Assembly: GCA_030653545.1 (NCBI GenBank)
Contig: JAURZE010000022.1
Span: forward strand, 248,001 to 312,000
Direction: 5' to 3'
Source of the DNA: Nitrospira sp.
GTDB lineage: Bacteria > Nitrospirota > Nitrospiria > Nitrospirales > Nitrospiraceae
DNA length: 64,000 nucleotides
A model generated the notes under the pieces. That model searched no databases, was not told the DNA's origin, and was given only the letters and a program-made list of their open reading frames with translations. Position numbers and translations under genes: made by a program. Positions within the stretch are counted from its first letter, which is position 1; each line of letters starts with the position of its first letter. Below are positions 19,747 through 22,541 of this stretch, in pieces.

Positions 19747-20835
19747 ATGACGACGAGTCCATCCGCTGCAACTGAACACGCCACTTCCTGGACCCCATGC
19801 CCGATACTGGGGATTGAATCCTCCTGCGATGAAACATCGGCTGCAATCCTGAATCACGATGGAACGGTCCTCTCGAACATCGTGTCCTCACAAGACTCAG
19901 TTCATCGCCAATTCGGCGGCGTGGTTCCTGAACTGGCCGCACGCGCCCATCTGAGTACCATTGACCGGGTTGTCCAGTCCGCGCTGGTTGAAGCACGTCT
20001 TTCCAGGCATGACCTTGGGGCCATCGCCGTCACACAAGGACCCGGTCTGGCCGGTGCACTCCTGGTTGGACTCAATTACGCCAAAGGGCTGGCCTATGGG
20101 CTCTCGCTCCCTCTGATCGGCGTCAATCATCTTGAAGGTCATATCTCCTCCGCCTGGTTGGCAGATCCCACATTCCCGTTCCCCTGCATTGTCCTTGTCG
20201 TATCCGGTGGGCATACCCATTTATTCAGGAGGGAAGCCGATGGTCGAACCATACTATTGGGCTGCACAAGGGACGATGCCGCCGGTGAAGCGTTTGATAA
20301 GGGCGCGCAGATGCTCGGCCTGGATTATCCTGGTGGGCCGGCAATCGATCGCCTGGCGCGCCAAGGAAGCCCCAAAGCCATTCGCTTCCCCTTGTCTCGC
20401 TTACAAAAGAGCAGCTTGGAGTTCAGCTTCAGCGGGCTGAAGACATCGTTACTCTATCGGCTTCGAGGAATGGACGCAGCGGCACGTACCGCCCAGGCCG
20501 CCGATCTGGCAGCGGGCTACCAAGAGGCGATCGTGCGCGTCCTTGTCGATCGGGCGTTTGTGGCGGTACGGTCGTCCGGCGTGGATGCGCTGGCCGTGGT
20601 CGGGGGGGTTTCCGCCAACTCACGGCTTCGTACACTGCTCACCGCGAGAGCCCAGGAAGAGGGAGTCAGGCTCGCGTTGCCGCCGATGGCCTACTGCACC
20701 GACAACGCCGCCATGATTGCATCTGCCGGGAGACAATTGCTCCTACGCGGGCACCGGCCCGTCGCTGACCTCGAGATTCTGCCATCACTGCGACCGGGCA
20801 CTTACGCCGGCCGTACAACCGTCCACGCCCGCTGA
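19747..20835 (+). CDS. tsaD: tRNA N6-adenosine threonylcarbamoyltransferase TsaD
   Basis: It transfers threonylcarbamoyl to A37 of ANN-decoding tRNAs. The 362-aa protein has an N-terminal GIESSCDETSAAIL, the metal-binding HLEGH motif (about residues 127-131) and the ASKHA nucleotide motifs VVSGGHTH and YCTDNAAMIA. The partner gene tsaC, which makes the threonylcarbamoyl-AMP substrate, lies at 54532-55179; tsaB and tsaE are not in the window. No strong ribosome-binding site precedes the ATG. It is followed 14 bp later by hflX, probably in one transcript. Confidence 0.95.
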   Translation: MTTSPSAATEHATSWTPCPILGIESSCDETSAAILNHDGTVLSNIVSSQDSVHRQFGGVVPELAARAHLSTIDRVVQSALVEARLSRHDLGAIAVTQGPGLAGALLVGLNYAKGLAYGLSLPLIGVNHLEGHISSAWLADPTFPFPCIVLVVSGGHTHLFRREADGRTILLGCTRDDAAGEAFDKGAQMLGLDYPGGPAIDRLARQGSPKAIRFPLSRLQKSSLEFSFSGLKTSLLYRLRGMDAAARTAQAADLAAGYQEAIVRVLVDRAFVAVRSSGVDALAVVGGVSANSRLRTLLTARAQEEGVRLALPPMAYCTDNAAMIASAGRQLLLRGHRPVADLEILPSLRPGTYAGRTTVHAR

Positions 20836-20849
20836 CCAAGAGGCCGCCT

Positions 20850-22541
20850 ATTCCTGAGATACAAGGCAAAACTCTCGGACTTCGTGCCAGCCAACTCGCC
20901 GCGATCGAGCATCTCTATCGACGACGGAATGCGGTCGATGAAGTCCTCTCCCTTGAGCTGGCGACAGAGCTCTCGACGCTCTCGGCTGAGTACCGGCGTC
21001 CAATCTCGCTGCTTCTCACCAGACGCGGTGTCGTGCAGGAAATCATCGTGGGAACCGACATGGTGTTGTCACCCACCACACTGTCTAAATTTCGCGCAGG
21101 CCCCCGTTCACTGCGAGGGCTCCGCCTGATTCGAACGCAACTCCAAGACAGGCCCTTAAGCCAGGAAGATCTGACCGACCTCGGCTACCTGCGCCTCGAC
21201 CTGATCGGCATTCTCTCAGTATCACCAAACGGCACGCCTGGGACGCTCTATCTCGCGCATCTCCTGCCGCCGAATGAAACCGGGCGACTCTGCGAAGTCC
21301 TCAAACCGACGCCGCTACAGGAATGCCCCCTCGTCTTCGACCGATTCATCAAAGACCTCGAAGTAGACCTGCAGGAAGCTCTCAAGCATCACGCCGTGAC
21401 CAGCGGGAGCGAGTCCGCCATCCTGGTCAGCGCATCGTCGCATGGTCGCGCCGAGCAGGAAGAACGGCTCGCCGAGCTCGCCGACCTTGCGGCCTCTGTC
21501 GGCGTCACCGTGTTTGATTCGATTGCGCAACGCATTGGAGACGGCCACCAGCGATACCTGCTGGGAAGCGGAAAACTGAAAGAAGTGCTGATACAAACCC
21601 TGCATAAGGGCGCGGATATGGTCATCTTTGATCAAACGCTTACGCCGGCCCAGGCGCGGGCGATTGCCGAGATGACAGACATCAAAATCATCGACCGGAC
21701 GCAGTTGATTCTCGATATTTTTGCGCGCCGGGCCCATAGCCGTGAAGGCAAGGTCCAGGTGGAACTGGCGCAATTACGCTATCTGCTCCCGCGCCTCTCC
21801 GGACAAGGCACACAGCTGTCACGCCTCGGCGGAGGCATCGGAACCAGAGGCCCGGGAGAAACGAAATTGGAAACCGATCGCCGGAAGATTCGCGACCGGA
21901 TTACCCACTTGGAGCGCGAAATCGAACAATTCTCCAAACACCAGAATCAACGCCGCGCACGCCGGGAACGGCAGCAACTGCCGGTCCTCTCCTTCGTCGG
22001 CTACACCAACGCCGGCAAGTCGACCTTGCTGAACCTCCTCACGGAAAGTCATGTCTCGGCGGAAAATCGCCTTTTTGAGACATTGGACACCACCAGCCGC
22101 CGCCTGCGCTTCCCGCAGGATCGGGAAGTCATCGTCACCGATACCGTCGGATTTATCCGCGATCTCCCCAAAGAACTGATCGGGGCGTTCCGGACAACGC
22201 TGGAGGAATTGCGCGAAGCCGATTTACTCCTCCATGTCGTCGATGCGAGCGCGCCCGACATCGACGTTCAGATGAAAGCCGTCCTGGATATTCTCGAAGA
22301 ATTGGAGCTCGATAAAATTCCGCAAGTCCTGATCTTCAATAAGTGCGATCGACTGCCCGCCGCTCAAGCCGAAGCCTTATGCCGACGCTATGACGCCATC
22401 GGCATCTGCGCCCTGGACGCATCGACATTGCGGCCGTTGATTGATCACCTCGCAACACGCGTTCACACCATGACCAGCACCGAGGAACCGGACCTTCCTC
22501 CGCCGCCGGCCCCGGATCCTGCACTTGCATCTCACCATTAA
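20850..22541 (+). CDS. hflX: GTPase HflX, apparently starting at an AUU codon
   Basis: A ribosome-associated GTPase that splits stalled ribosomes under stress. The G motifs are GYTNAGKST, DTVGFI and NKCD, with the HflX hallmark GGIGTRGPGETKLE upstream of them. The first ATG/GTG/TTG in frame is the GTG at 21033, but coding clearly begins earlier: about 60 codons upstream translate to a typical HflX N-terminus (GKTLGLRASQLAAIEHLYRRR, then RRGVVQEIIVG). The frame back to the stop at 20766 offers no standard start. The best candidate is ATT at 20850: it has AGAGG 6 nt upstream and would give M-PEIQGKT, matching the usual start of this family. A CTG at 20832 that overlaps the tsaD stop is the alternative. 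From 20850 the protein is 563 aa. Confidence 0.88.
   Translation: MPEIQGKTLGLRASQLAAIEHLYRRRNAVDEVLSLELATELSTLSAEYRRPISLLLTRRGVVQEIIVGTDMVLSPTTLSKFRAGPRSLRGLRLIRTQLQDRPLSQEDLTDLGYLRLDLIGILSVSPNGTPGTLYLAHLLPPNETGRLCEVLKPTPLQECPLVFDRFIKDLEVDLQEALKHHAVTSGSESAILVSASSHGRAEQEERLAELADLAASVGVTVFDSIAQRIGDGHQRYLLGSGKLKEVLIQTLHKGADMVIFDQTLTPAQARAIAEMTDIKIIDRTQLILDIFARRAHSREGKVQVELAQLRYLLPRLSGQGTQLSRLGGGIGTRGPGETKLETDRRKIRDRITHLEREIEQFSKHQNQRRARRERQQLPVLSFVGYTNAGKSTLLNLLTESHVSAENRLFETLDTTSRRLRFPQDREVIVTDTVGFIRDLPKELIGAFRTTLEELREADLLLHVVDASAPDIDVQMKAVLDILEELELDKIPQVLIFNKCDRLPAAQAEALCRRYDAIGICALDASTLRPLIDHLATRVHTMTSTEEPDLPPPPAPDPALASHH

Follow-up and report, generated by a model that had tools for sequence, protein, structure and literature searches.

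A non-canonical AUU-class start codon of hflX recurs across five bacterial phyla and may tie a ribosome-splitting GTPase to initiation factor IF3

In the window, a 64,000-nucleotide stretch of a Nitrospira sp. genome, hflX is almost certainly translated from an AUU codon (ATT at 20850..20852; this and all features below lie on the + strand). The AUU start proposed in the initial annotation was borne out by conservation of both the codon and its Shine-Dalgarno sequence, by selection upstream of the first canonical start (GTG 21033), and by the control genes infC, obg, and yicC. Sequence comparison establishes the start position, its codon class, the Shine-Dalgarno sequence, the translated N-terminus, and the recurrence of the pattern, which is not confined to one genome and spans five phyla. 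By analogy with infC, control by initiation factor IF3 would be the likeliest purpose of such a start; for the reading as a whole, in which hflX starts at AUU and HflX output depends on IF3, we estimate a probability of about 0.6.

The hflX start codon in Nitrospirota

The long form of hflX (20850..22541) encodes 563 amino acids, an N-terminal domain of ~187 residues followed by the HflX core. Its predicted N-terminus is (M)PEIQGK, with the Met probably cleaved off because Pro follows it. The open frame runs from 20769 to 22541, is bounded on the upstream side by an in-frame TGA (20766..20768), and, just as had been noted initially, contains no ATG, GTG, or TTG between this stop and the GTG at 21033..21035, which is codon 62; taking that first canonical start would lose codons 2 to 61 (20853..21032). 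The ATT lies 6 nt downstream of a Shine-Dalgarno sequence originally given as AGAGG and here read as AAGAGG (20838..20843). The gene upstream is tsaD (19747..20835), whose TGA stop (20833-20835) is 14 nt ahead of the hflX start and is overlapped, at the position first assigned, by an in-frame CTG (20832..20834). The encoded protein matched TIGR03156 at 443.3 bits, above the curated cut-off of 216.75, as well as the Pfam families PF13167, PF16360, and PF01926; its 318 bits against NF008280/PRK11058, the E. coli-type ribosome rescue HflX, fell under the cut-off of 441. A second HflX-like GTPase frame of 533 amino acids was observed at G000:C38:147565-148380 (43% identity over residues 260-532); many Nitrospira genomes among the matches listed gave similar hits. 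A search for RNA leader elements returned no Rfam match above the gathering score in 20500-21200. A frameshift fusion of hflX with tsaD was rejected, tsaD being in another frame and hflX having its own Shine-Dalgarno sequence.

Loci from 117 Nitrospirota genomes were compared: 57 from a search of relatives, in which 58 of 59 genomes gave a match (G028 weakly matched another GTPase only), and 60 chosen by hand, with family codes as a guide, from the listed matches of a phylum search in which 184 of 198 genomes matched. The start column was defined as the codon five codons ahead of the conserved Gly of the motif G-x-x-x-G-L-K/R. It was occupied by ATT in 67 loci, ATC in 26, and ATA in 9, for a sum of 102; nine loci carried other codons. 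The alignment of relatives advised in the initial annotation placed the canonical codons of six further homologs (ATG in 4, TTG in 1, GTG in 1) precisely at this same column, which is thereby marked as the hflX start. From the upstream in-frame stop to the motif, 72 of the 117 loci had no ATG, GTG, or TTG at all, while 34 had canonical codons solely at least 10 codons before the motif, 10 had one 3 to 7 codons ahead of it, and one (L116) had ATT in place plus a GTG three codons after it. In some genomes the frame is shut immediately before the ATT, reading stop-CTT-ATT (L017), stop-CCG-ATT (L158), or stop-AAA-ATT (L209). A base error or indel, for which a check had been recommended, is excluded by the agreement of many independent assemblies, including the complete chromosome of N. 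moscoviensis (L036), where GGAGA precedes the ATT of hflX and none of the 66 codons reaching back to the stop is canonical. The refuting pattern named at the outset, homologs with ATG combined with a base error in the window, was not borne out. Among 34 loci of the genus, the column held ATT 28 times, ATC 6 times, and ATA never, compared to 462, 583, and 71 at Ile codons internal to these genes (chi-square p 1e-5, uncorrected for kinship); this excess of ATT suggests that the codon is selected as a start and not as isoleucine.

Duplex energies with the 16S tail were compared in four phyla, with P-values uncorrected for kinship; the phylum of G242 (phyla are labeled by member genome, see below) was excluded because its likely start lies off the fixed column, 4 to 7 codons before the motif. 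Mean energies upstream of the ATN codon were -8.9 in 102 Nitrospirota loci and -9.0 in 50 loci of the G240 phylum, against -3.0 and -3.2, respectively, upstream of internal Ile codons. A match of at least 4 nt was present in 101 of the 102 Nitrospirota ATN loci (99%) versus 28% of 709 internal Ile codons, and at 100% versus 31% in the G240 phylum; the small sets from the phyla of G239 (n=5) and G244 (n=16) agreed. Spacing to the ATN in these four phyla was mostly 5 to 8 nt. Within the window, the energy was -5.8 at ATT 20850 and -5.6 at an ATA at 20859, the latter using the same AAGAGG site at 15 nt. AAGAGG is preserved in four relatives (L003, L004, L005, and L095), whereas the CTG at 20832, an in-frame codon that could serve as a weak start, is not kept there, being replaced by TTA in L003, L004, and L095 and by GTA in L005. 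This CTG also lacks a Shine-Dalgarno sequence (+0.9), and in 8 of the 57 relatives the frame is shut within five codons ahead of the start column, so that a start at the CTG overlapping the tsaD stop is barely credible.

Codons 2 to 61 are under purifying selection, judging from substitution rates: between the window and its four close relatives, dN/dS was 0.038-0.075 over these codons and 0.074-0.087 downstream. In distant pairs (L006, L009, L010, and L011), with synonymous sites saturated, it was 0.18-0.28 where computable, and the N-terminus is thus less conserved than the rest of HflX. AlphaFold2 predicted the N-terminus with confidence, both within whole HflX (mean pLDDT of 91-94 per ten residues across residues 11-60) and when the first 189 residues were folded alone (mean pLDDT 89.5). 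Codon 62 falls within a predicted strand (residues 61-67), and initiation there would therefore disrupt the N-terminal domain. We give next to no weight to the reading in which translation begins at GTG 21033, the earliest canonical start in frame, with the upstream similarity untranslated, or in which a sequencing error affects the locus, given the low upstream dN/dS in close relatives, the position of the GTG within a strand, its weak Shine-Dalgarno energy (-2.3), and the concurrence of independent assemblies.

The N-terminal domain comprises residues 1-187 (20850-21410). No Pfam match was found ahead of residue 204 and no PDB sequence relative ahead of residue 188, and a Foldseek search with the N-terminal domain gave nothing at E 0.001 or better (top E, 1.4e-3). 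In the VIA list for this domain, the top Z was 7.0 over 112 residues (rmsd 3.8), and the titles were mostly of JAMM/MPN proteins; at this middling Z, the predicted fold may resemble JAB1/MPN (JAMM) domains. No H-x-H, which we take to be part of the JAMM motif, was seen in the domain consensus. Start prediction limited to ATG, GTG, and TTG would truncate or misplace the HflX N-terminus in these groups, thereby concealing a portion of a conserved domain; no solved sequence relative of this domain was found.

Other phyla, control genes, and evolutionary history

Loci outside Nitrospirota comprised the best matches plus others picked by hand, and their phyla were named after record titles of member MAGs: an uncultured Geobacter MAG (G240), a "Deltaproteobacteria" MAG (G242), Nitrospinota J063 (G239, a phylum comprising five genomes), and an Acidobacteriia MAG (G244). 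Loci were fetched from 70 of 108, 50 of 104, 5 of 5, and 30 of 93 matching genomes, respectively; two of the 70 from the G240 phylum lacked the motif and were dropped, leaving 68. A start column set at five codons ahead of the motif suits Nitrospirota, the G240 phylum, and the G239 phylum, and in part the G244 phylum. No canonical codon was present between stop and motif in 39/68 loci of the G240 phylum, 18/50 of G242, 3/5 of G239, and 20/30 of G244, or 80/153 together, the G242 phylum being the weakest. A canonical codon lay 3 to 7 codons before the motif in 14, 16, 1, and 5 loci, respectively, and only farther upstream in 13, 14, 1, and 5. Across all five phyla, 152 of 270 loci were free of ATG, GTG, and TTG from stop to motif, and 139 of those 152 also of CTG. 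The 46 loci with a canonical codon 3 to 7 codons before the motif indicate that the weak start can be abandoned; the canonical codons of the 67 loci that have one farther upstream only were not taken as starts, although case-by-case exceptions may occur.

Three loci (L236, L284, and L292) read CCA-ACG-AAA where other loci carry ATN, and in L292 no ATN or CTG codon is available; from its position, ACG may be the hflX start in all three. Among 20 loci of short-form hflX in the G244 phylum, for which the anchor is uncertain, 12 had a canonical codon, 3 had none, and 5 lacked the motif. Two short-form genes of this phylum (L458 and L463) show an AGGAGG-like sequence followed by ATC-ATC and lack canonical codons ahead of the conserved core, and the odd start may thus extend beyond the long form. 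A search of IMG/VR for further long-form relatives, in the hope of cyanobacterial ones, found none.

The control genes were scored by a similar rule, using for infC and obg the 30 best-scoring loci per search. A canonical start was present in all 50 yicC loci that had the motif (missing in 11 of 61 tried) and, for obg, in 30/30 Nitrospirales and 27/30 of the G240 phylum (57/60 together). For infC, in contrast, a canonical start was absent in 16 of 30 Nitrospirales loci, present only farther upstream in 9, and near in 5; in the G240 phylum it was absent in 17 of 28, farther upstream in 9, and near in 2, with 2 more loci lacking the motif. Where it was absent, the likely infC start was AUC, AUA, or AUU; the window's own genome (L139) reads AAG AGG TGG GTT ATC GTC CCC AAA. 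In its frequent use of non-canonical starts, hflX therefore behaves as infC does and unlike the ordinary genes obg and yicC. The two genes are not tied, since in six genomes of one family (f3; L121, L129, L130, L132, L135, and L142) infC offers an in-frame ATG, 9 codons ahead of its motif, in place of the AUC seen in Nitrospira, and hflX still has ATT, a pattern compatible with IF3 acting on hflX and not with a requirement for both genes. The obg genes of L380, L386, and L390 (genomes G369, G340, and G266) read stop-CCG-ATC-AAA with GGGAG upstream and no canonical start; beside them, rplU has GTG and rpmA has ATG. From this arrangement, obg is a possible further candidate for an IF3-sensitive start.

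A FastTree phylogeny over ~125 residues included 202 of the 270 loci, omitting the 67 with canonical codons only far upstream and one open at a contig end. Start states were 156 non-canonical, including four loci with GTG or TTG at one of the two codons immediately ahead of the motif (L116, L277, L290, and L267), and 46 canonical. The states required 28 changes on the tree, versus a mean of 41.6 and a minimum of 35 in 200 shuffles. In a two-state model, the midpoint root was non-canonical with probability 0.995-1.0; a model barring return to the non-canonical state fit almost equally well (lnL -89.6 vs -88.0). With a short alignment and a midpoint root, these results offer a hint of an ancient non-canonical start that has occasionally been lost.

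Possible function of the AUU start

IF3 represses starts other than ATG, GTG, and TTG, an effect that infC uses for feedback (PMC5472188); it reduces the use of AUU and CAU in vitro (PMC10158994); and it is an anti-association factor, while HflX splits 70S ribosomes (PMC9067457). In the mechanism we propose, the AAGAGG sequence positions the ribosome on AUU 20850, and IF3 would destabilize the resulting 30S complex, as on other starts outside AUG, GUG, and UUG. Given this discrimination, translation of hflX would follow the level of free IF3, being held down when IF3 is plentiful and allowing HflX to rise when IF3 is scarce relative to 30S. HflX separates 70S ribosomes into subunits, and IF3 prevents the released 30S from reassociating. 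Production of the splitting GTPase would thus be coupled, through its AUU start, to the availability of IF3, in the way that infC itself is through a start of this class. In Nitrospira, ribosomes finishing tsaD a few bases away may in addition reinitiate and so aid the weak AUU.

A broader version, offered tentatively and at somewhat less than even odds, is that an ancient regulon responsive to IF3 unites genes for ribosome-subunit factors, namely hflX, infC, and, in certain lineages, obg; a shortage of IF3 would free translation of the splitting GTPase from AUU, AUC, or AUA. Such a regulon would have arisen before Nitrospirota diverged from the phyla titled after the Geobacter, Acidobacteriia, Nitrospinota, and Deltaproteobacteria MAGs.

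The main rival to IF3 control, which we consider unlikely but well ahead of the others, takes the AUU start as a fixed brake: HflX, a 70S splitter harmful in excess, would simply be kept scarce, and IF3 would vary too little to regulate it. It rests on the same codon evidence, has a precedent in E. coli pcnB, whose AUU is described as a translational limit (PMC1780047), and would account for the use of ATT, ATC, ATA, and perhaps ACG alike, as expected if weakness alone mattered. Retention of a strong Shine-Dalgarno sequence would, however, be odd for a plain brake, and infC, with a similar start that serves feedback in E. coli, shares this codon class with hflX in many groups, which is not decisive against a brake.

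Quite improbable, by comparison, is that termination-reinitiation by ribosomes leaving tsaD, and not IF3, sets HflX output. Coupling is suggested by gene order, with tsaD upstream in 48 of 61 loci; in 46 of these 48, the position of its stop ranges from 16 nt ahead of the hflX start to an overlap of 8 nt (14 nt ahead in the window), and reinitiation may contribute where the stop is this near. Ten of the 61 loci, however, had no tsaD motif upstream, including all five from other phyla (L082, L084, L086, L088, and L092), which belong to groups with the same start class; the strong Shine-Dalgarno sequences in the four phyla tested (G242 phylum left out) likewise argue against reinitiation alone. 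IF3-dependent control accommodates reinitiation as an aid, and a second ribosome-subunit gene with such a start over five phyla would, if the reading is right, suggest that the level of IF3 is a wider regulatory signal. Together, these observations suggest an old and overlooked way of restraining a ribosome-recycling enzyme.

Comparison with known systems

In the papers surveyed, conserved non-canonical starts are described for few bacterial genes, of which infC is the classic. No earlier report of a non-canonical hflX start was found in the part of the open-access literature that was surveyed, and hflX is therefore counted here as a new case among known non-canonical starts, unusual in its depth across phyla and in its tie to ribosome splitting.

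We take the start of E. coli hflX to be ATG. Its product (5ADY and others) shares the HflX core, with residues 188-503 aligning, but is a short form in which the N-terminal domain is absent. A non-canonical start has been proposed for lepA; in a proposed case from two genomes, which is inferred only, a ribosome GTPase needs an AUU start for its full length, as HflX does. Binns and Masters reportedly described the AUU start of E. coli pcnB in 2002; like hflX, pcnB is a chromosomal gene with AUU, but its start is described as a limit on expression. The E. coli gene has heat-shock promoters (PMC9067457). In Bacillales, hflX is preceded by a uORF motif (PMC8632094), a feature distinct from a non-canonical start. 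Start mapping in S. aureus found non-canonical starts in cvfC1 (AUU) and ccpN (AUA), which resemble that of hflX in being conserved and in having extended Shine-Dalgarno sequences; neither product is a ribosome-splitting factor, and conservation of cvfC1 is described among staphylococci (PMC13009471). The GTC start of Streptomyces sigR, repressed by IF3 (PMC5472188), offers a model of control of an IF3 target: like hflX, sigR extends conserved non-canonical starts beyond infC, yet its case is experimentally shown, is described in one genus, and concerns a product that is no ribosome factor. Closest is infC itself, which starts at AUU in E. coli, ATC in Streptomyces (PMC5472188), and AUA in S. 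aureus (PMC13009471). It differs in that its autoregulation is experimentally shown, whereas HflX is a GTPase with a start known from comparison alone; the two genes are alike in their non-canonical AUN starts, in products that act on the separation of ribosomal subunits, IF3 also keeping these apart, and in the occurrence of AUC, AUA, or AUU in many of the same groups.
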